Positions 1 through 34,983 of a stretch of 41,321 nucleotides of DNA are shown piece after piece. A program made the position numbers and the translations under genes. Within the stretch, counting starts at the first letter, position 1; the number at the start of each line of letters is the position of its first letter. Source of the stretch: Helicobacteraceae bacterium (lineage in GTDB: Bacteria > Campylobacterota > Campylobacteria > Campylobacterales > SZUA-545); contig JAIRKM010000033.1 in NCBI GenBank assembly GCA_031260125.1, positions 1 to 41,321 on the forward strand. The letters run 5' to 3'. The notes beneath the pieces were generated by a model that did no database searches, was not told the DNA's origin, and saw only the letters and a program-made list of their open reading frames with translations.

Positions 1-1224
1 AATAACAACCCCGCTGGTGGTATAGCGAAGCCTGCTGTCGTCAAAGGCAAGCAGATTCCAGCCCTCGGCAAGCTTGCCGTTGTAGAACTCCGCGCGCCCC
101 TCAATATTTTCCTGCAAAAGCAGACCGCCATCTACGCTGGTGTCTCCGCGAACATGCCGCGCCCAGTAGCCATAGCCGGGGGTAAGAAGGTTTAGGTTGG
201 ATGCGGAGGTGGTGCTTTCCGTTGTTCCATCGCCAGTAAATGTCTGAATCTCCCAAAGAGCCGGCGTATTGATCGCCGCATAGCGGTAGAGCGTCAGATT
301 GCCGTCCAAAGCGGTGCGGTTGATCTCGTAATCGTTCCGTATGGAGAAAGGACTGGCGAGATACTGCCCTATATCGTTTGTAAACGCGCAGTTATAGCTG
401 CCCGCTACCGCGTTCGCGCCCGTGCAGATCACCTGATTAAGAGCGCCCGCGTCAGCCGCCTGAGAGCCTGCCGTACTGACAAGAAGCGTCAGCTCGCTGT
501 TGATACGCGCCGGATTGGCGTAGGTCTTGGCGCGGTCAAGCGTCCCGATGTAGATGCGATCGGAACTCGGCGTTCCCCATAGCGCGGTCAAGCTGTTTTT
601 GAAGCTGATCTTAAACGGCTCGCCCTCATAGATCGCCTGATAGGTGATAAGCACGTCAGGAGCGCTGGCGTATGGAGAGACGACATACATCGTTCTCATC
701 GGAGATGTGTAGTCTTTCCCCACCAATTTGCAGCTTCCGCCGGCGTTGCTGCCTATACCCGTGCCGATAACGACGACCGCCTTGCGCGCGCCGTTTGCTC
801 CCGCGATAGCGCGGACGCCCAGCACCGAGTGATACGGCAAGCCGATACCGCTTGTATTGGTTTCATCGGTATTCAGCAGGTTTGCCGCTGCTGGTACAGT
901 GCCGGCGCCAAAGTTGTAGCCATCGCCCGAGGTGGAAGCTATAGTATTCTGGTTGCCACCCTGCGTGCTAAAGTCGCCATCCCAACTGATATGGTTTGCC
1001 AAATCGGCTATGTCCACCACGGCGATTGCGCTGCAACCGTTTGGTGAACTAAAATCTGGGTTTTGCGCCGCACTGCCTTCGCCGGCAAGTTGGAACAGCC
1101 CCCCAACGCCTATTAACTGCCAATAGCTATCTGAAAGCTTTACGGCGTATTTGTCCGCCGCGAAGCCAGATATTGGCAGCGCCAACAGAAAAGCGGCTAG
1201 TAAAGCCCGCGTTCCTCGTTTCAT
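1..1224 (-). CDS. large exported surface protein, N-terminal 408 residues (runs off left edge)
   Basis: The frame is open from an ATG at 1224 to the window edge with no stop. GGAGG lies 5 bases before the ATG. A Sec-type signal peptide (MKRGTRALLAAFLLALP, cleavage probably near GFAA-D) is followed by a mature start containing WQLIGVGGL. That matches WHLIGVNGL near the start of the protein at 27261-30494. Later blocks also match: a GYWARH / AYWVRV segment followed by GWNLLAFDDSRLR versus YWNMLSFNDSFLR. I therefore see the two as paralogues. Two bacterial N-glycosylation sequons are present, ETNTS (Asn codon 856-858) and DGNLT (298-300). Few cysteines, many Gly/Ser/Asn/Thr, as in secreted beta-rich proteins. 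No enzymatic motif is recognised; a surface or extracellular structural role is inferred. It lies downstream of two lipoproteins on the same strand, but a 143-base gap with its own promoter-like signal separates them. Confidence 0.8.
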   Translation of the reverse strand, partial: MKRGTRALLAAFLLALPISGFAADKYAVKLSDSYWQLIGVGGLFQLAGEGSAAQNPDFSSPNGCSAIAVVDIADLANHISWDGDFSTQGGNQNTIASTSGDGYNFGAGTVPAAANLLNTDETNTSGIGLPYHSVLGVRAIAGANGARKAVVVIGTGIGSNAGGSCKLVGKDYTSPMRTMYVVSPYASAPDVLITYQAIYEGEPFKISFKNSLTALWGTPSSDRIYIGTLDRAKTYANPARINSELTLLVSTAGSQAADAGALNQVICTGANAVAGSYNCAFTNDIGQYLASPFSIRNDYEINRTALDGNLTLYRYAAINTPALWEIQTFTGDGTTESTTSASNLNLLTPGYGYWARHVRGDTSVDGGLLLQENIEGRAEFYNGKLAEGWNLLAFDDSRLRYTTSGVVI

Positions 1225-1367: not shown

Positions 1368-2249
1368 TTACCCCGCCTCCGCCGGATTGGAGGTAACCCA
1401 CGTGAGCGACTTGCTCGGCGGGCTGAATACGCTGGTTGGTATCTGCCCGCGCACACACATGTCGTTGCTGTAAACGTAAAAGTTGCGCTTGCCTTCTGCC
1501 AAGCCGAAGAGGTGCTGCGCCATCTGTAGATCAAAATTGACCACCGCGCCATTGAGCGCCGTGAACGAGTACTGTCCAAAGTCCACAAAGGAGACCGTCG
1601 CGGGCTTTGTAACGACTGGATAGAAGAGGCGTATGTTGGAATCCCACGCGATGTTGGCGATGTTGGATCGCATATACGCCGATGAGTCCGGCCCGAAATG
1701 CCCCTCTACGTCCTGAAAGTTATCGTCAACGATATAAAAGCCATTCAAAACGCAGGCGTTTGGATCGTAAATCGGCTTATCGCCAATGTCGGGAGGTCCG
1801 GGCGGATCGGGGTCTGACGGATCGACGGGAGAGCCGCCAATCAGATCGCCGCTGACGCTGCCCGTTACGGTAACGATCGCCGTAACAGAACCGCCGCCAT
1901 AGAGCTGGGCGACTATTGTTTCTGTGCCCGGACGCGCGCCCGTCAGCCTAAGCACGGGTCGGACGGCGGGGGCGGCGTGGAGGATAGCGTAACGCACGAA
2001 ACTGCTGTTTGTCTCTTTCGCGTCGCCCGCCGCGAGTATCGCAAGCGATGAGGTGGTGGAGACGGCGTAGGGGGCGTCGTCTTGCCCTATGGGTAGCTCA
2101 ATGTTCTTATGCTCGCCCACGGCGATCGTAATGTAAACCGCATCCGAGCTTACGCCGGCGCTACCGCTAGTGCGGCTGTCCGCCCCGCAGGAGAGCAGGA
2201 GAGAGATCAAGGCCGTGAAGAGGATATATTTAAGGGACGCTATACGCAT
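1368..2249 (-). CDS. putative lipoprotein with Pro/Asp-rich linker
   Basis: A 293-residue protein. The signal peptide ends in a lipobox-like LLLSC at about residues 17-21, so an outer-membrane or surface lipoprotein is likely. Residues about 35-135 are Val/Thr-rich and resemble an Ig-like beta domain. A Pro/Asp/Gly-rich linker (DPSDPDPPGPP) then leads to a C-terminal domain of about 140 residues with two cysteines that I do not recognise. One Campylobacter-type sequon, ETNSS, is present (Asn codon 2007-2009). The ATG at 2249 has AGGAG upstream and lies inside the end of the preceding gene (20-base overlap), so the two lipoproteins are probably translationally coupled. Function unknown; association with the neighbouring surface proteins is inferred from position. 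Confidence 0.8.
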   Translation of the reverse strand: MRIASLKYILFTALISLLLSCGADSRTSGSAGVSSDAVYITIAVGEHKNIELPIGQDDAPYAVSTTSSLAILAAGDAKETNSSFVRYAILHAAPAVRPVLRLTGARPGTETIVAQLYGGGSVTAIVTVTGSVSGDLIGGSPVDPSDPDPPGPPDIGDKPIYDPNACVLNGFYIVDDNFQDVEGHFGPDSSAYMRSNIANIAWDSNIRLFYPVVTKPATVSFVDFGQYSFTALNGAVVNFDLQMAQHLFGLAEGKRNFYVYSNDMCVRGQIPTSVFSPPSKSLTWVTSNPAEAG

Positions 2250-4251
2250 TGACCGCTCCTGTGGAAATTATGTCCGCGCCGGTGTACTGCGCCGATGGAT
2301 AGGTGCGATAATCAAAGAAATTTGGCTCCGCCCAGTAGTTAAACCAGCGTTTGCTGTCCACGGCGTATACCAGATGGGCGCGGTTGGCACTGTCTACGGC
2401 GATCGCGTTGGACGCGCCGTGTTCGCCCGATTCGTTCGCGCCCGGCTCCTCGATCACCCAGCGCGATACCAGATTGCGGAATGGGGGTTTGCGAGCGTAG
2501 TGGATCTTGCTGCCGCCGGTTGTAACGGCGGCGTAAGCGACACGTGGTTCGTTGTAGGCATCCAGCGCGAAGCTGACGCCTGAAATATCCCCCTGAACCG
2601 GATCGATTCCGCCGACCGGCTCCATCTGCCATTTATACTTATCTCCGTAAGGCTCGCGGCTGTAGAGGCGCACGTAGCTTCCCTCTTTGACCGCCATGAT
2701 CGGCTTGTTTACGCGATCCAAAGAGAGCGAAACGGAGCCGATGTTGCCGCTGATCCCCTCAACCAGCTCCTTGTGAAAGCTGCCGCTTTGACGCGCCGCG
2801 TAGTAGAGCGCCTCCGGAATTTCCGTGTAGTTGCCGTCCGTGCCTAAGTGGTTATAGAGGGCGTTGGCGTAAGCGAAGCGCGGTTCGCCCGTTAAGCGGT
2901 TGTGCGAAATGGAGAGGCTGTGAATAGGGGCGTTCAGCGCGACGCATTGGTGCGTGGCGCTGTCAATGTCGATCGGGTTGTCTTTGAGAGAAGCGGCGCA
3001 GATTTTGTTGCTTACCGCGTCAAAGTAGGCGATATGCACCTGATCGGCAGCCGAAACGCGGTCGGGATCGCGAAACGCCGTAATGCCCAAAAGCAGCGAT
3101 CCCTGCGGATAGGTGTGGTTTGCGTCGATCACGGGCGCGCTACTTACCTTTATATCGTTCCATGCGTCGTTTGCGCTGTTTAGGTAGGGTTGGTAGCGCA
3201 GATAGACGTAGCCGTTTCGCAGATAGACGACGATGGGCTTGTCCCTATTGGAATCGTACGGCGAAGCGGCGATCTGCGCTGAAACGCCGGCGTCTGTCGA
3301 TGTGCCTTTACCGCCGTCGATCGTCGCATGCGCCCAACTGCTGTAGAAGTTGGAGTAAACAAGCCCTTTGGAGGTGGCATCGTATTGCGCCGCGTGGATC
3401 GTCTTGTAGCCGCTCGTTTCGCTGACGGCGATCGAGAGGTAGCGCCCCGCGTCAACGCCCGTCCAGCCGTTGGGGACTTGGGCTTCAACGGAGTCTTTTA
3501 CCTGCACGGTAAGCGGCGTTCCGGTGATGCGAATCAATTGGTTGTCGTTGGCGGAAAGCGTGTAGATGGGGGTGATGAAGGTAAAGCCCTTTTCCAGCCC
3601 GCGCAGCTTGATATCCACGCTGTAAGAGCCGGACGCGCCGGCGGTAACGTTCATCTCGCGCGGTTCGACGCTGACGTTGTTGTTGCTCGTCTCTATATAC
3701 AGGCTGCCGCCGGTAAGGGATGTCGCCGCGCCGCTGTGATCGACGGCGCTTACCTTGAAGACCCGTTCGCCGTTGATGTCGATAAACGCCTGCATGGGGT
3801 TGAAAAAAAGCTCAGAGACATCAAGGGAGTTACGCTCCACAACCTGAACGAGAATCGTATATGGGCTGCTGTAGCGCCCGTCTCTTTTCGCCCGCGCCGT
3901 GATCCGCGCGCTACCGATACTCTTGCCTACAACAAAGCCGCTGTCGCTCACTTGCGCAACGTTGGGGCTGGAGCTTGTCCACTCAACCGCTATAGGATTG
4001 GCGGCGGTGGATTCTAGCACCGTGCCGGCGCCGTTTGTAACGATCGCCGTCAAGCCGACGGAGCCGCCCTCTGCGAGAATGGGAGTGCGGGGAAAGACGG
4101 AGCTTATCTGAAGACTGCCGCCGCTTGCGAGCGTGTACCCGCCCGATCCGCCAGCGCCTTCGGGCAGTTCGCGATCTTCCACGCAACCGCCGATGAACAG
4201 CAGCGCGAACGGTAACAGAAATTTCAGCGCCTTCAAGCTTCTGCCTTTCAC
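2230..4251 (-). CDS. large lipoprotein with BIG2-like domain and propeller-like repeats
   Basis: Up to 673 residues. The hydrophobic N-terminus ends in FIGGC, a lipobox. Residues about 45-140 fit a bacterial Ig-like (BIG2) domain, with VEWTSSSPNVAQVS followed by a G.A.ITA pattern. From about 275 to the end, phrases such as KPIVVYL, VHIAYFD, PRVAYAA and AHLVYAV recur, each after a run like ALDAYNEP or AVDSANR. This resembles a beta-propeller made of BNR/Kelch-like blades, though no enzyme motif is visible. Three sequons, EMNVT, DANHT and DGNYT, have Asn codons at 3649-3651, 3118-3120 and 2830-2832. The start is uncertain: the GTG at 4251 lacks a clear ribosome site, and the TTG at 4236 has AAGG 7 bases upstream and gives a shorter signal peptide. 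It overlaps the next lipoprotein by 20 bases. Confidence 0.8.
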   Translation of the reverse strand: MKGRSLKALKFLLPFALLFIGGCVEDRELPEGAGGSGGYTLASGGSLQISSVFPRTPILAEGGSVGLTAIVTNGAGTVLESTAANPIAVEWTSSSPNVAQVSDSGFVVGKSIGSARITARAKRDGRYSSPYTILVQVVERNSLDVSELFFNPMQAFIDINGERVFKVSAVDHSGAATSLTGGSLYIETSNNNVSVEPREMNVTAGASGSYSVDIKLRGLEKGFTFITPIYTLSANDNQLIRITGTPLTVQVKDSVEAQVPNGWTGVDAGRYLSIAVSETSGYKTIHAAQYDATSKGLVYSNFYSSWAHATIDGGKGTSTDAGVSAQIAASPYDSNRDKPIVVYLRNGYVYLRYQPYLNSANDAWNDIKVSSAPVIDANHTYPQGSLLLGITAFRDPDRVSAADQVHIAYFDAVSNKICAASLKDNPIDIDSATHQCVALNAPIHSLSISHNRLTGEPRFAYANALYNHLGTDGNYTEIPEALYYAARQSGSFHKELVEGISGNIGSVSLSLDRVNKPIMAVKEGSYVRLYSREPYGDKYKWQMEPVGGIDPVQGDISGVSFALDAYNEPRVAYAAVTTGGSKIHYARKPPFRNLVSRWVIEEPGANESGEHGASNAIAVDSANRAHLVYAVDSKRWFNYWAEPNFFDYRTYPSAQYTGADIISTGAVNAYSVP

Positions 4252-27260: not shown

Positions 27261-30200
27261 ATGCGAACGCTTGTATTTCTGTTTATCGCCGCGTTTTTGT
27301 ACGGAGCAAACACATATCAACTGCCATTAAAATCCGGCATCTGGCATCTGATCGGGGTCAATGGACTCCACCACAGAAGCGCCGAAACTTTTGAGATCGG
27401 CTGGGAGGTTCTGAAGGAGACAAACGATCCCGATGGCAATTTTACGTGGGAGTTTAACGCGGACGGGACGCCAAACGCCGGCAACGGCGGCGATGAAAAG
27501 CGCTCGGAGATCGGTATCAGAATCGTAAGCGGCGCAGAGATCGCCAACGCGCAGATCAGCTATCAGCGGCTTGCAAAAGATAGCGGCTCTTCAATGGCGG
27601 GAATGTACGTCTCAGGCAGAGAGGCGGGGGGAATGGCCGCTTTGCACATACGTTTTAAAGACAGCTATAAGGGCAAGCCATTTCACCTATCCTTTGACAA
27701 CGGCGTGGTGCTGCAAGGGGTGTTTGATCCCAAATACACGGAGGCGAATCCGGCGAATCTACCCGTAAAAAAGAGCAGCGCCTCGGCGGCGGTGTCGCGC
27801 ATTATTGACGCGGTTGATGCCAATCTGAGCGACAACAACATCTCGATGCTTGATTATCTTGACGTAAACTGCGAGGCGCTCTTTTGCACGGATTCCTCTT
27901 CGATCGTCGTGGGAGGGCGACAGAGGCTTAGCAGCTCGGAAAGCATCACCGTTTACTCGTGGGACGCGGCGCAGAGCAGGTGGCTCATCTACAACTCGGC
28001 AAGCTCCTCCGGCAGTTTTGAAAACTTTGAAGCGGGTAAGGCGTACTGGGTCAGGGTGAATACGGCGAGCGACGAGGCGGGGCTAATTCTCTCAAGGGGC
28101 GATCTAAAAGACGAGAGCTACGCCCAAAACGGCAATGTTAAACTTTATTGGAATATGCTCAGCTTCAACGACTCCTTCCTGCGCAAAACGCCAAGCGCCG
28201 TGTTTGTGAGCTATACGTCGGGAGATGTGATCAAGGTGCGCGATAACTTTGCCAAATTTACGGCGAAAATCGACACGAACAAACCGAAGGCAGATGCGGC
28301 GAAACTGTTTAATATGAACATGTACGCGGTCGATCTCGTCGGGATCAACAGCGCGAAAATACGCGCCTATCCCGCGAAAAACTCCGGCAGCGCGGAGGGG
28401 ATACTGATCGTCTCCGATGAGGATTTCGGCGTTCATCTTGGAGGAAACGCAGTTGCTAGTTCAATTGCCGGACGGAGCTTGACGGAGGGATATAACGAGG
28501 CGGAAATATACAAGTTTTCCCCGGTAGACGAGCATATACTGGCGCTTACAATCAACGAACATTTTCTCTCCTATGGCGGCGGCAAGAAAACGGCGTTTCA
28601 GGCGGGTTTCGTGGGAGGGACGATAAAGACGGTAGATCTCTCCGCGGCGCACAATCTCGACGACGTGATAGCGGCGCTTGCAACGATTAAAGCGGGTGGA
28701 AAGCAGGATTTTGTGATGATCGACATCGATTTTAACGGCGGTTACGAAACGGCGGTAATCGGATCGACATCCAGAGTCTACGCCCGCGATTCAACCTATA
28801 TGAAGCTCTTTGACTACAGCGGCGGCGCGGGAGACGAATTCGCGCTGATCGGCGACAGCGAGGTAAAGGTGGCGTACGGCGTCGATCGCGACGTGACGGT
28901 GCAGAATATAAACGACAAGAACGTATCCACCGGAATTGTCGCTTACCCCATCGGAACGGACTCGATCCTGATCTCGTCGATCACCGCCAGAAGTTTCGAC
29001 CTTAAAGAGCCAAAAACGCGTACGCGGTTTACCGATCGCTATCTATTTGACGAAAACGATCCGCTTACGCTAGGCGCAATAGGAGAGGCGTTTGCCGCCG
29101 AATCGCTCGCCGCCGCGCCGGTCGGACAAACGGGAGCGGTTAAAAAGGCGGTGCGGCTGACCGGCAATCTGACCTTCGCGGCGCAGTTTAGTCAGGACTT
29201 CCCCGTCTCCGGCCCGCTTTACGCGCTTCAAGGGGCGGCGGGCGGCGGTAGCAGTCCAGAGCTTTTATTAAGCGGCGTTACAAGAGACGATAGGACGATT
29301 ATGTGGCGTCAGGCGGACACAACCATACCGGCGGATCGCCAGCGGGTGGCAAATTCGCTCTTTAACCTCTACAAACTCCACAAGGAACGCGGATATTGGG
29401 TCTATATGCAACTGGCAAACGCGCAGAACTCGCTTTCCATCGCGTCGCAGGAGTTCGCAAGCAGCGTAACGCGCCACTACTCAAACATCTTTGACTCCAA
29501 CGGATCAAACGGCGTCGCTCCTACGCATAACCAGATCGCGCTCGATCTTACGGTGAACGCGAATGGTTTCAGCGGGCTGACAAGCAGCGCGTTTGAGATG
29601 CCGGAAAATATCTTTGCTCATATAGATGGCGCTCAGTACGCGCTACTGAAAAACGGCACGGCATACAGCTACAGCGCCCATTTCAACGATCGGGATATGG
29701 AAGCGCTACGTGAAAGAGATATAGATTCGCCAAAGATGAGAGTGGGGATCAACCTGACAAACGGGCTGGGTGCGGCGCGGATCGATGAGAGATATGAATT
29801 TGACAACAGAAAGCCTTCCGTTCCGCAATATCAGTTTGATAATTCCACGATCAACGGCGGCATTAAAATAGAATCAAAAGGAGCAAGCCGCCTTTATATA
29901 TATGATGGCAACCTTTCGGACAAAGGCAACGATGGATATCTGATATATTCTGCGGCGGCAAGCGGCGCTCAAGCCGGCTTCAATATCTACGAGCAACCAG
30001 AGATCGCCTTTGGCACAAAGGAGCATCCATATTACGATCTGCGCATCATCGGCGAGGGAGAGAATAAGCTGCAATCCGACACAAAGCGGCTCCTCTTCGC
30101 GCCCGTCTATAAGGCGGCGCATCTGCTTTCGACAATCAACGAAAATGAGTCTGTAGCGTTCGATCATTACGGGCAAAATCCGGCACCCTATCAGATCGGC

Positions 30201-30494
30201 GCATATAAAGACAGCGGCGTGCAGATCAGCTCTTCGGATCAAAATGTTACTATCATCACATACAAACCGCTTCCCATCAATCTTATCGATTGCTTGACGG
30301 TTACAAGCAACATATATCTATCGGGCAAGGAAATAGCGCGAATAACATATTGCCCCATATATAACGGAATGGTTTTTTACGCATATCACAAAGAGAGCGA
30401 TCGTCTTGCTTACGGTTTATTTCAAGGGGGCGACATCAATGTCAGCTTAAATGTGATAGACAGCAATCAAACCATTGACGATCCAAGAATTTAG
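27261..30494 (+). CDS. large exported, sequon-rich surface protein
   Basis: A 1077-residue protein from ATG 27261; a TTG at 27246 in frame would add five residues, but the ATG gives a better signal peptide (MRTLVFLFIAAFLYGA). The mature N-terminus has WHLIGVNGL, matching the left-edge paralogue. A block near residues 235-300 (WLIYNS, AYWVRV, YWNMLSF) also matches it. The protein is rich in Asn, Ser, Ala and Gly with few Cys, and shows no catalytic motif. Seven D-X-N-X-S/T sequons have Asn codons at 27822, 27837, 28920, 29499, 29910, 30243 and 30465. It is the gene directly upstream of pglB, though a separate promoter appears to drive pglB. Surface or extracellular structure, probably N-glycosylated, is the best inference. 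Confidence 0.85.
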   Translation: MRTLVFLFIAAFLYGANTYQLPLKSGIWHLIGVNGLHHRSAETFEIGWEVLKETNDPDGNFTWEFNADGTPNAGNGGDEKRSEIGIRIVSGAEIANAQISYQRLAKDSGSSMAGMYVSGREAGGMAALHIRFKDSYKGKPFHLSFDNGVVLQGVFDPKYTEANPANLPVKKSSASAAVSRIIDAVDANLSDNNISMLDYLDVNCEALFCTDSSSIVVGGRQRLSSSESITVYSWDAAQSRWLIYNSASSSGSFENFEAGKAYWVRVNTASDEAGLILSRGDLKDESYAQNGNVKLYWNMLSFNDSFLRKTPSAVFVSYTSGDVIKVRDNFAKFTAKIDTNKPKADAAKLFNMNMYAVDLVGINSAKIRAYPAKNSGSAEGILIVSDEDFGVHLGGNAVASSIAGRSLTEGYNEAEIYKFSPVDEHILALTINEHFLSYGGGKKTAFQAGFVGGTIKTVDLSAAHNLDDVIAALATIKAGGKQDFVMIDIDFNGGYETAVIGSTSRVYARDSTYMKLFDYSGGAGDEFALIGDSEVKVAYGVDRDVTVQNINDKNVSTGIVAYPIGTDSILISSITARSFDLKEPKTRTRFTDRYLFDENDPLTLGAIGEAFAAESLAAAPVGQTGAVKKAVRLTGNLTFAAQFSQDFPVSGPLYALQGAAGGGSSPELLLSGVTRDDRTIMWRQADTTIPADRQRVANSLFNLYKLHKERGYWVYMQLANAQNSLSIASQEFASSVTRHYSNIFDSNGSNGVAPTHNQIALDLTVNANGFSGLTSSAFEMPENIFAHIDGAQYALLKNGTAYSYSAHFNDRDMEALRERDIDSPKMRVGINLTNGLGAARIDERYEFDNRKPSVPQYQFDNSTINGGIKIESKGASRLYIYDGNLSDKGNDGYLIYSAAASGAQAGFNIYEQPEIAFGTKEHPYYDLRIIGEGENKLQSDTKRLLFAPVYKAAHLLSTINENESVAFDHYGQNPAPYQIGAYKDSGVQISSSDQNVTIITYKPLPINLIDCLTVTSNIYLSGKEIARITYCPIYNGMVFYAYHKESDRLAYGLFQGGDINVSLNVIDSNQTIDDPRI

Positions 30495-30511
30495 ACCGCT
30501 CCTTGCTAGGC

Positions 30512-30532
30512 GGGTCAAAATACTACAGACCC
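30512..30532 (+). terminator. hairpin after the large exported protein gene (weak terminator candidate)
   Basis: GGGTC (30512-30516) pairs with GACCC (30528-30532), extended by flanking GCG/CGC with a bulge. There is no U-run, so an intrinsic terminator is doubtful. Confidence 0.25.
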
Positions 30533-30557
30533 CCGCACGGTCAAATCGCGCTTCGTA

Positions 30558-30585
30558 TTGAGCGAAAGAGCAAAGTGGGTAAAAT
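30558..30585 (+). promoter_or_regulatory. candidate sigma-70 promoter of the pgl genes
   Basis: TTGAGC (30558-30563), 16 bases, TAAAAT (30580-30585). The predicted start is near 30592, 26 bases before ATG 30618, with AAAGG as ribosome site. This suggests pglB-pglA-galE can be expressed separately from the RpoN-type gene upstream. Confidence 0.5.
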
Positions 30586-30617
30586 CGCATCTTCTTTAAC
30601 AGCGGTAAAGGTATTTT

Positions 30618-32861
30618 ATGCAGTTGACCAAAAACTCTCCACTTTTTGATATGAAAGAGGATCGTGCGAGCTTGAAGACCGCCTGCCTTCTCATTGCGCT
30701 GGCGTTCATATTCAGCTTCGCCATTCGTATGATCTGGGTTTTTCAGATGCATGGAGGGGATATTTTCCCTCTGCTCAGTTGGAACGATCAGTTTATGATC
30801 AACACAAACGACGGCTACTATTGGGCGGAGGGCGCGAGGGATATTCTGGACGCGAACGAAACGAGATACCCAACCAGCCCTACGCATTACGGCGCGCCGA
30901 TCGTTACGGCGTTTATCGCCAAGCTGTTGCCGTTTGTCTCGTTTGAAACGCTGATCTTCTACCTGCCCGCCATCTTGAGCAGCCTCATTGTCATACCGCT
31001 GACGCTGATCGGCAGAGCGTTTAAGCAAACCTACGTGGGCTTTGCCGCCGCGCTTATCGCCTCGATCGCGCACAGCTACTACAACCGGACGATGATCGGC
31101 TATTACGACGACGATATGCTACTGATCGTCCTGCCCATGACAGCGCTGTACGCGCTTATTATGGGAATCTATACGCGCAAGAGTCCCTATCTGCTCCTCA
31201 CGCCCTTTTTCGTCTTCCTAAGCGTTTGGTACTACGCCAACAGCCAGATCATCATCTGGGCGATCGCCGTTTTGCTGCTGGCGTACACGCTGGTCTTCCA
31301 CAGGAGAGAGGTCTACTGCTATAAGATGCTGACCTTTCTCCTGCTCGCGCTTGCCTCCGTTCCCATTTGGTCGATGCTAGGGCGGCAAGAGGCGGCGCTG
31401 CTTGCGGTTTTTGCCGTATGGGCGGCGATCTTCGCGCTCTTTGAGCGTCTCGGCAAAAACGCCAGATTTGCCGTCTTTGCCCTTCTCCCGCTCACGGCGG
31501 TTCTGGCATTTTTTTGCAGCGGGATCGTGGAGCATGTATGGTGGCAGCTTTCCGGCTACGTGATCCGCGAAAGCGTCGACGTGGTGGGGGGCGATCTGAA
31601 ACTTCACTTCAAAAGCGTTGCGCAAACGGTAAGCGAAGCAAAATCCATCGACTTCTTCACCTTCGCCAACCGCATAAGCGGACATTGGATCGCCTTTCTG
31701 TTCGCCTGCGCCGGCACCGCTATGCTGATGATCCGCCACCGCGCTATGCTACTTGCCCTGCCGTTTGTTGGTATGGGATTTATGGCGTACGGCATTCCGT
31801 ATCTGATCAGCGGCGGCGGCTTGCGGTTTACCATTTACGCCGTTCCCGTTCTTGCGCTTGGCATAAGCTATCTTATCTTCTGGATCGCCGCGCGGCTGGC
31901 GGATGCGCATCTTCTCAAAACCGCCCTATCAAAAGCCGCCGTTATCGCCGTATGCGTCGCGGCGGTTTTGCTGCCCAACATCAACCATGTGATCGACTAC
32001 AAAATGACCCCGGTTTTTTATGCCCATGAGGTGAGCGCGATCGATCGTCTCGGGCAAATGATAAAGCAGCAGCAAGACTACGCCGTTACGTGGTGGGACT
32101 ACGGCTATCCGCTGCGCTTCTACTCACGCGTCTGGACGCTCGTTGATGGCGGCAGGCACACCGGCGACGCAAACTATATGCCCAGCTACATACTGACCAC
32201 GACAGATCAGCGGACAGCCGCCCGTCTCGCACGTATCGCGGTGGAGTACGATTACCGCCAGCTCAGCGGCGCAATACCCGCGAATAAGCCGCTTCTCGAG
32301 GAGGTTTTAGCCGACTACAACGCCTCTTCCGCAAAGAGTTTTTTAAACGACCTCTCCCGCCTTGAGGGGTTCAGCCTGCCTGAAAAAACGCGGGATATAT
32401 ACCTTGTTTTACCATTCAGAATGAGCGATATTTTCAATACGGTAATGTCTTTCAGCGCAATCGATCCGGACACCGGCGCGGAGTTTATGACCCCATTCTT
32501 TTTAAGCACAGACGCCATACCTGGATCACGAAGAGATACCACGATGGAACTAGCGTATCAACAGTATAGGTTTTTCGTCGATAAAACAAAAGGCACCATA
32601 TCGGGTCCCGCAAGAAATTGGACGATCAAATATATTTTTTCCGTTGGAATAAATGACGGCGTGCGCAAGTATCAGCAGATCAACAAAGACGGGCAAATCT
32701 CACTGTTGGATTTTGAAGAGGTAAGAAAGGTATGGATTGTGGACGATGCCGCAATGAACTCCACATTTGTCAGACTCTTTGCATTTGGACTTTACGATAA
32801 AAATCTGTTTGAGCTGGCGATCGTCGCGCCGCTTGTCAAGATATACCGACTCAAAATATAA
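30618..32861 (+). CDS. pglB: undecaprenyl-diphosphooligosaccharide-protein glycosyltransferase (STT3/PglB)
   Basis: A 747-residue protein with about 13 membrane helices and a C-terminal periplasmic domain. Catalytic features match C. jejuni PglB. They are NTNDGYYWAEGARD (Asp65), the D-X-D site GYYDDDML (Asp164, Asp166), Glu340 in TVSEAKSID of the external loop, and the sequon-binding WWDYG (492-496). The bacterial MI motif in RMSDIF is Met602 and Ile605. It transfers a lipid-linked glycan en bloc to Asn in D/E-X-N-X-S/T in the periplasm. The protein itself carries a DANET sequon (Asn80). It overlaps pglA by one base. Slightly longer than C. jejuni PglB (713 residues). Confidence 0.97.
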   Translation: MQLTKNSPLFDMKEDRASLKTACLLIALAFIFSFAIRMIWVFQMHGGDIFPLLSWNDQFMINTNDGYYWAEGARDILDANETRYPTSPTHYGAPIVTAFIAKLLPFVSFETLIFYLPAILSSLIVIPLTLIGRAFKQTYVGFAAALIASIAHSYYNRTMIGYYDDDMLLIVLPMTALYALIMGIYTRKSPYLLLTPFFVFLSVWYYANSQIIIWAIAVLLLAYTLVFHRREVYCYKMLTFLLLALASVPIWSMLGRQEAALLAVFAVWAAIFALFERLGKNARFAVFALLPLTAVLAFFCSGIVEHVWWQLSGYVIRESVDVVGGDLKLHFKSVAQTVSEAKSIDFFTFANRISGHWIAFLFACAGTAMLMIRHRAMLLALPFVGMGFMAYGIPYLISGGGLRFTIYAVPVLALGISYLIFWIAARLADAHLLKTALSKAAVIAVCVAAVLLPNINHVIDYKMTPVFYAHEVSAIDRLGQMIKQQQDYAVTWWDYGYPLRFYSRVWTLVDGGRHTGDANYMPSYILTTTDQRTAARLARIAVEYDYRQLSGAIPANKPLLEEVLADYNASSAKSFLNDLSRLEGFSLPEKTRDIYLVLPFRMSDIFNTVMSFSAIDPDTGAEFMTPFFLSTDAIPGSRRDTTMELAYQQYRFFVDKTKGTISGPARNWTIKYIFSVGINDGVRKYQQINKDGQISLLDFEEVRKVWIVDDAAMNSTFVRLFAFGLYDKNLFELAIVAPLVKIYRLKI

Positions 32862-34003
32862 TGAAAAGGGTCGTTTTTCTCAGCCACTTTGACGCAAACC
32901 TATATCTGTTTCGTCTGCCGGTTATGCGCGCCCTTGTCGAACAAGGCTGTAAGGTGATAGCCCTTGCGCCGCGCGGAAGTTATAGCGATCGCTTCAAAGA
33001 GTTTGGCATTGAGAGTCGATCGTACAGGATAAACCGCGCCGGACTTAACCCGTTTGATGCGCTAAGAACTATCCGTGAGCTAAAGAGAATTCTATCGGAG
33101 ATCAAGCCGGATATTTTGCATACGTTTACCGTCAAGCCAAACATATACGGTACGATCGCCGGCAGAGCCGCGAATGTTAAAACTATATTTAATCTTGTAG
33201 AAGGGCTTGGATCGTTTTACGTCGCAAACACCGTCAAGGCAAAACTTATAAGATTTATCATTGAAATGCTGGAGAAATGGGTATTTTCCCGTTCAAACGG
33301 CTGCGTATTCGTCAATAACGACGATCCGGACTATCTGATCGGCAAAAACATCATTAAACGCGAAAAGGCGATTTTAATAAAAAGCGTCGGTATCGACACG
33401 TCGCTCTACAGTATGGAGAGGTTTTCAAAGGAGGAGCTTAGGGCGGCGAGAGAGGAGATCGGCGTTGACGAAAACGTTGTGGTTTTGATGGTCGCGCGGG
33501 CGATATGGGACAAAGGCGTAAGAGAGTACTACGAGGCGGCGGCGATCGTTGCGAAACGGCTCAAAAATATACGGTTTGTTTACGTCGGCGAAACGGACAG
33601 CGGCAATCCAAGCTGCGTGGATAGGTCGTTTCTTGAACAGAGGCAAGTTCTCTATCTGGGGCATAGAGAAGATATAGCGCGGCTTACGGCGATTGCCGAT
33701 ATATACACGCTTCCGAGCTACAGAGAAGGGCTGCCGAGAACGCTTCTGGAGGCGGCGAGCATGCAAAAGCCGATCGTTACGACAAATACATCAGGGTGCA
33801 GAGATGTCGTCAAGGATGGAAAAAATGGATTTCTAGTGCCGATCAAAGAGGTAAAACCGCTTGCAAGAAAGATAGAGATTTTGGCTAAAGATAAAGAATT
33901 GCGGATATCGATGGGCAAAAAATCAAGAGAAATTGCGGTTAATGAGTTTGAGCTTCAAAAAGTCGTTGAAGCGTATATAGAACTGTATAAAGGATATTTA
34001 TGA
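32861..34003 (+). CDS. pglA: PglA-like GT4 glycosyltransferase
   Basis: A 380-residue GT4 (GT-B fold) enzyme. It closely follows C. jejuni PglA: FLSHFDANLYLFR at the start, LVEGLGSFY, IKSVGI, VARAIWDKGVREYYEAA, and LPSYREGLPRTLLEA carrying the E-X7-E nucleotide-binding motif. PglA adds the second sugar (GalNAc) to undecaprenyl-PP-linked bacillosamine on the cytoplasmic side; here the acceptor and donor are inferred from family. The ATG overlaps the pglB stop by one base, and galE overlaps its end by four. Base use in the second half is somewhat more AT-rich than the surrounding housekeeping genes. Confidence 0.9.
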   Translation: MKRVVFLSHFDANLYLFRLPVMRALVEQGCKVIALAPRGSYSDRFKEFGIESRSYRINRAGLNPFDALRTIRELKRILSEIKPDILHTFTVKPNIYGTIAGRAANVKTIFNLVEGLGSFYVANTVKAKLIRFIIEMLEKWVFSRSNGCVFVNNDDPDYLIGKNIIKREKAILIKSVGIDTSLYSMERFSKEELRAAREEIGVDENVVVLMVARAIWDKGVREYYEAAAIVAKRLKNIRFVYVGETDSGNPSCVDRSFLEQRQVLYLGHREDIARLTAIADIYTLPSYREGLPRTLLEAASMQKPIVTTNTSGCRDVVKDGKNGFLVPIKEVKPLARKIEILAKDKELRISMGKKSREIAVNEFELQKVVEAYIELYKGYL

Positions 34004-34983
34004 AAATATGCGTTGTTGGAGGCGCGGGCTATATAGGATCGCATACGGTTTGCGAACTTATAGACGCCGGACACAGGGTAATTATAATTGACGATCTTTC
34101 CAACGCAGCAAAGTCCGCAGTTCACAGCGAAGCGTCCTTTTATAACGTGGATATTACGGACAGCCGCGCGCTGGATACGGCGTTCAAAGTAGAATGCGCC
34201 GCCGAACCTTTTGACGCGGTTATGCATTTTGCCGCAAAAATAGTAGTGCCACAAAGCGTAGAAAATCCATCTCTGTATTACTACAACAATGTAGAAGGAA
34301 CGCGATCCCTGCTTGAGACTATGGTGAAAAATCGCTGCAAGAACATCATATTCTCCTCCACCGCGTCTGTCTATGGCGAGACAGAAACCGGAGTATGCGG
34401 CGAAGAGACTCCAACAAAGCCGACAAACCCATACGGTGAAACAAAACTCGCCGCCGAAAAGATGATCGCATGGTTTGCGAAAGCGCACAATATGAATTAC
34501 TGCATATTTAGATATTTCAACGTAGCGGGAGCGCACCGATCGCTAAAAATCGGTCTTTGGCATGAGAACATAACGCATATAATTCCCGCCACAATTGAAG
34601 CGGCAATAGGCATGCGGGAGCGGTTGATCGTCTTTGGCAACGACTACAACACGCCGGATGGCACTTGTGTGAGAGACTATGTCCATGTAAGCGACATTGC
34701 CCACGCGCACCTTTTGGCGATCGATCTGCTACAAAAAAACCGCAGCGAAATAATCAACTTGGGATCAAACAGGGGATTTTCCGTCAAAGAGGTGATTGAC
34801 GAGGTGTCAAAGCGCCGCCCCGTTAATTTTGAGTACGGCAACCGTCGTGCGGGCGACGCCGCGAAGATCGTCGCTTCTAACAAAAAGGCCAAAGAGCTTC
34901 TTGGATGGTCGCCCGAACGAGGTCTTGCGGAGATAATCGACAGCGACCTCGCCTTCCGTCAAAAGAAAGCGAAGATCGGCTGA
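34000..34983 (+). CDS. galE: UDP-glucose / UDP-N-acetylglucosamine 4-epimerase
   Basis: A 327-residue extended short-chain dehydrogenase. NAD binds at GGAGYIGSH (7-15). The catalytic STASVYGE segment is followed by NPYGETK with Tyr145 and Lys149. It interconverts UDP-Glc/UDP-Gal and, in Campylobacter (Gne), UDP-GlcNAc/UDP-GalNAc. Its position after pglA suggests it supplies the GalNAc donor for the N-glycan. Substrate range cannot be read with certainty. The start overlaps pglA by four bases (ATGA). It ends 8 bases before the convergent RRM gene. Confidence 0.94.
   Translation: MKICVVGGAGYIGSHTVCELIDAGHRVIIIDDLSNAAKSAVHSEASFYNVDITDSRALDTAFKVECAAEPFDAVMHFAAKIVVPQSVENPSLYYYNNVEGTRSLLETMVKNRCKNIIFSSTASVYGETETGVCGEETPTKPTNPYGETKLAAEKMIAWFAKAHNMNYCIFRYFNVAGAHRSLKIGLWHENITHIIPATIEAAIGMRERLIVFGNDYNTPDGTCVRDYVHVSDIAHAHLLAIDLLQKNRSEIINLGSNRGFSVKEVIDEVSKRRPVNFEYGNRRAGDAAKIVASNKKAKELLGWSPERGLAEIIDSDLAFRQKKAKIG

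Follow-up and report, generated by a model that had tools for sequence, protein, structure and literature searches.

The 41,321-nucleotide stretch analysed here (the window; contig JAIRKM010000033.1 of a Helicobacteraceae bacterium) raises the question of why a large protein encoded at 27261-30494 on the forward strand, directly upstream of a gene for the oligosaccharyltransferase PglB, carries many copies of the extended bacterial N-glycosylation sequon, D/E-X-N-X-S/T. Comparison with its relatives indicates that it is very probably a large, exported, beta-rich protein, predicted to be N-glycosylated, whose family has been under sustained selection for many PglB sites.

The open reading frame (ORF) starts with ATG and encodes 1077 residues, opening with a hydrophobic, signal-like N-terminus (MRTLVFLFIAAFLYGANT), which is common to its complete orthologues as judged by a simple rule only. 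S, G, D and N are abundant in the protein, which is acidic, with an isoelectric point (pI) of 5.2 (4.3-5.3 in its orthologues). Nine of its 15 N-X-S/T sites have an acidic residue at position -2, which is Asp in every case, and none has Pro at X; the asparagines concerned are residues 60, 188, 193, 554, 747, 884, 995, 1060 and 1069. The original prediction listed seven such sequons, all of which are present, but its count was too low, as Asn60 and Asn1060 had been overlooked. When the nine sites, all on the forward strand, were followed through 11 full or nearly full orthologues, DGNLS at Asn884 (29904-29918) was found in all 11, with exchange of D and E at -2, followed by DNNIS at Asn193 (27831-27845) in ten, DQNVT at Asn995 (30237-30251) in nine, DANLS at Asn188 (27816-27830) in eight, and DGNFT at Asn60 (27432-27446) and DSNQT at Asn1069 (30459-30473) in seven each. 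DSNGS at Asn747 (29493-29507) was kept in four, and both DKNVS at Asn554 (28914-28928) and DINVS at Asn1060 (30432-30446) were lineage-specific, occurring in two. Conservation of the asparagines had been proposed as a check on the original prediction, and it was borne out in the number of sites and partly in their position, a few (Asn884, 193, 995 and 188) being kept in place. Since few sites are fixed and many turn over, the total glycan load seems to weigh more than most single positions.

We found no sequence matches to the protein in Pfam, NCBIfam or the PDB sequences, and literature searches among the papers available did not find a description of its family. Of the 15 genomes in this GTDB family 13 had a homologue, as did 26 of the 399 examined across the order, and a phylum-wide draw returned matches in this order only. 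The 11 orthologues share 30-82% identity with the window protein and hold from 6 (in a fragment) to 21 sequons, and a paralogous branch and distant relatives in the order's other families have up to 30. In the family, sequons occur all along the chain, with few in the conserved block around residues 700-800. Taken together, these sequences outline a family of Campylobacterales proteins of about 1050-1340 residues with 6-30 predicted PglB sites each, under sustained selection. The densest long proteins seen were two distant relatives, L115 and L116 (genomes G037 and G018), which at a length of about 1315 residues have 29 and 30 sequons. Some orthologues (L056 and L058) have a long acidic C-terminal tail; the window protein has no such tail.

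The evidence for selection comes from how the motif is retained and gained. From orthologue to orthologue, sequons were retained in 45% of comparisons; the figure was 9% when the motif kept its ends but had a different central residue, 8% for the mirrored motif and 11% for N-X-S/T lacking the acid. The 82%-identical sister orthologue, which has 13 sequons, shares eight of the nine window columns. Sequons occupied 53 distinct alignment columns, where the mirror motif occupied 8 and the other controls 2-16, which implies that many sequon gains were independent. Moreover, the motif [DE]xNx[ST] occurred 462 times in 35 homologues where 55 were expected (8.3x), a pooled count over proteins that share descent and are thus not independent. 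Resolved by position, Asn at the centre was enriched 5.9x, Asp and Glu at -2 were each enriched 5.1x, and at +2 only Thr (4.4x) and Ser (3.8x) were in excess, all other residues being below 1. The mirror motif (0.64x), [KR]xNx[ST] (0.53x) and the Gln-, Ser- and Gly-centred versions (0.5-0.8x) all fell below expectation. We conclude from these comparisons that the sequon pattern is the imprint of selection for PglB acceptor sites and that, among the motifs compared, selection favours the PglB rule alone.

The enzyme encoded next to this protein has the features such a rule would call for. The 747-residue PglB (30618-32861, forward strand) matches PF21436 (5e-40) and PF02516 (2e-27), both above the cut-off, and aligns end to end with Campylobacter lari PglB (3RCE/5OGL, E 8e-122). 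It keeps the WWDYG and MxxI motifs and the equivalents of C. lari E319, R331 and R375, the numbering being our own derivation from the alignment. R331 is the proposed contact of the acid at -2, although this Arg on its own is not enough to set the specificity (PMC4894442), and the one STT3 gene found in this genome carries its equivalent. Thus, the claim that the neighbour is an extended-sequon oligosaccharyltransferase agrees with the residues found, as all those expected are there. With 498 bits the protein stays below the 1300-bit cut-off of the NCBIfam equivalog NF050801 (ProtGlycPglB), and by its sequence it is classed as a homologous PglB outside that curated group. PglB itself holds two sequons, one of which, DYNAS near residue 570, aligns with DYNQT of the C. 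lari enzyme and is possibly a self-glycosylation site. It is followed on the same strand by a GT4 family glycosyltransferase (32861-34003), a member of a conserved pglB-GT-galE block, and by the UDP-glucose 4-epimerase GalE (34000-34983; TIGR01179, above cut-off). Away from pglB, the same genome has genes that resemble those of the N,N'-diacetylbacillosamine pathway: one encodes a fusion of a PglC-like sugar transferase with a PglD-like acetyltransferase (L161 7790-8824, G000:C83) and another, in one 1032-residue frame, a PglF-like sugar dehydratase fused to a phosphomannomutase/phosphoglucomutase (L162 5926-9021, G000:C53); the pgl genes are scattered in Helicobacter pullorum as well (PMC6025236).

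An AlphaFold2 (AF2) model built from 24 sequences, with a predicted local distance difference test (pLDDT) score of 84 and a predicted template modelling (pTM) score of 0.79, is almost all beta; it superseded a poorer model from 11 sequences (pLDDT 65). Judged by the secondary structure of the model, loops hold eight of the sequon asparagines, and the ninth, Asn554, starts a short helix. A fold search with the better model found no global match to solved or viral structures, only partial matches of low TM-score to Ig/FN3 chains, adhesins and pieces of flagellin D2/D3, and the protein gave no relevant S-layer domain or fold match. A profile comparison of nine segments for internal repeats showed only overlaps of neighbouring segments.

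On this basis we propose that the acidic, beta-rich protein would be exported to the periplasm by its signal peptide, that PglB would there transfer a lipid-linked oligosaccharide of the N,N'-diacetylbacillosamine (diNAcBac) type to up to nine asparagines, mostly in loops, and that the protein, once at the cell surface or in the envelope, might gain stability or shielding from its coat of sugars. We infer the attachment of the glycan, its kind and the surface or envelope location, and surface exposure is a reasonable guess. Several points weigh against this proposal, in addition to the shared descent of the pooled homologues. Glycosylation requires a sequon, but the presence of one does not ensure it. 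No lipobox, surface anchor or outer-membrane domain was found in the protein. Of the originally predicted heavily glycosylated surface protein, the many-site acceptor is well supported by evolution, and the word surface is the part that goes beyond the features found. Furthermore, PglB was not detected in genome G281, whose homologue has nine sequons, and loss and missing data are indistinguishable in its fragmented assembly; the same-family genomes G007, G010 and G012 likewise have a homologue with PglB not detected, in fragmented assemblies, and PglB is present in related genomes. For the wider proposal, that this is a hyper-N-glycosylated envelope family with up to 30 sites per chain, in which the load is kept, the sites turn over and the chains form a sugar-coated surface layer or adhesin, we consider the case evenly balanced.

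Could the protein simply be one unexceptional case among many N-glycosylated exported proteins throughout the genome, special only in its size? We examined 41 stretches comprising 616 kb (38% of the 1.64 Mb genome) with 544 ORFs, using a simple ORF finder and export rule of our own. Relative to shuffle expectation, sequons were enriched 1.76x in predicted exported proteins and stood at 0.88x in cytosolic ones, as expected if PglB acts in the periplasm, and the exported class as a whole lends this explanation some credit. However, the 27261-30494 protein came first among all sampled ORFs with nine sequons while the runners-up held three, and its family was enriched about 7x within the sample, in line with the excess over the 35 homologues, which makes ordinary membership improbable. 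On the sampled part of the genome, the outcome of the sequon count against shuffled sequences, which had been suggested as a check of the original prediction, favours it. Its statement that other exported proteins of the window have N-X-S/T sites without the acid holds in direction, as they mostly lack it; the word dedicated was too strong, given the mild enrichment of exported proteins in general and the existence of a paralogue that is sequon-rich too.

Alternatively, the D-X-N-X-S/T motifs may be structural, forming Asx-turns or calcium-binding loops resembling DxDxDG in a beta-sandwich protein. The protein does consist of beta-sandwich-like domains strung one after another, and its fold bears a weak likeness to calcium-binding adhesins (SiiE and an ice-binding adhesin), and the nine sites in G281 are kept where PglB went undetected. 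But such a role predicts an excess of DxDx[ST] or DxNx[DE], and both stood at 0.98x in the 35 homologues; in addition, Glu is as enriched as Asp at -2 and swaps with it at Asn884, and Thr and Ser are nearly equal at +2 with every other residue depleted. We therefore disfavour the calcium-loop or turn explanation on the strength of the control motifs and regard it as very unlikely.

The position of the gene beside pglB raised the further possibility that the two form a dedicated acceptor-enzyme operon. The pglB ORF starts 123 bp downstream on the same strand, and no terminator-like site was found in the intergenic stretch (30495-30617), which does contain a weak promoter-like match at 30558-30585 on the forward strand. 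In a sister genome of the same genus, however, the pglB-GT-galE-stress-protein block is found on a different contig, preceded by other genes, at 81-86% identity for pglB-GT-galE and 80-86% with the stress-protein gene included. The gene order leading up to the glycoprotein gene matches that of the window there, but the gene after it is another one. The intergenic stretch thus holds the junction of two blocks that the sister genome carries on two different contigs. In more distant relatives pglB stands beside other genes, and in every other genome of the same family in which both were found the two genes are on different contigs. There is a small chance that an assembly error in one of the two genomes accounts for the differing adjacency. 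We rejected the operon link, which we consider highly improbable: from the gene orders we conclude that the adjacency to pglB is a local coincidence, and the functional link it had been taken to imply does not follow from a pairing that is not conserved.

Chance in a protein so rich in Asn, Asp and Ser is practically out of the question, in keeping with the earlier view that the pattern is not mere composition, since 20,000 shuffles of the mature chain gave a mean of 1.07 sequons and a maximum of 7, never nine, nine acids at -2 among 15 N-X-S/T sites have a binomial P of 9e-6, the acid excess is restricted to offset -2 and absent at other offsets, control motifs of the same composition show no enrichment, and sequon retention is five times the control level.

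Selection for PglB acceptor sites being the preferred explanation, the protein can be set beside known systems. It resembles the exported PglB acceptors of Campylobacter and Helicobacter, such as C. jejuni CmeA and CmeC and H. pullorum HgpA, which use the same extended sequon (PMC7683400, PMC9816155, PMC6025236). Judging by their descriptions, these published acceptors are set apart by having 1-3 sites per protein, against 6-30 here: in C. hepaticus 9 of 33 glycoproteins have two or more sites, with examples of three (PMC9816155), and in H. pullorum six sites were found on five proteins (PMC6025236). The window PglB likewise shares its end-to-end alignment and catalytic motifs with the C. lari enzyme and differs in falling far below the ProtGlycPglB cut-off. 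Archaeal S-layer glycoproteins (Sulfolobus, PMC4287180) are also large and exported with many N-sites, and offer an analogy in how the protein may work; there is no sequence or fold match to them, and the window protein uses the bacterial extended sequon. A sub-threshold match to the flagellin hook IN motif (Flagellin_IN, PF07196) was seen at about residues 526-607 in 5 of 14 members (best E 0.0016; best score 19.0 against a gathering score of 22.7 bits), the window protein giving none, and FliC D2/D3 and FlaA appeared weakly in the fold search. The remainder of the protein is unlike flagellin, and we rejected a flagellin relation, the PF07196 matches being sub-threshold only.

The purpose of bacterial N-glycans is still debated. 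The 6-30 sequon copies that selection has kept in the relatives point to bacterial proteins with a heavy sugar coat, a family that has drawn little notice. It would offer a direct target for asking what these glycans do, would predict which protein suffers most when pglB is removed and could serve as a natural multi-site acceptor for glycoengineering. Counting sequons with mirror and retention controls could likewise reveal PglB clients in uncultured genomes.

A paralogue of the 27261-30494 protein, identified by its match to it, lies at the start of the window, where the contig end cuts it to an N-terminal part of 408 residues with three sequons (1-1224, reverse strand). A C-terminal part is found at the end of contig G000:C74 (25823-27271, reverse strand), and the two are apparently one paralogue split by contig ends. 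Whole paralogues in relatives have about 1220-1340 residues and 14-20 sequons. Upstream of the paralogue is a lipoprotein-like protein (2233-4251, reverse strand) that has a Big_2 domain and three sequons, in the same order in two relatives, and a second lipoprotein-like gene (1371-2249, reverse strand) also precedes it. A small PPVPD...CKxP protein comes after the paralogue, and this gene order recurs in two relatives (loci L064 and L066).

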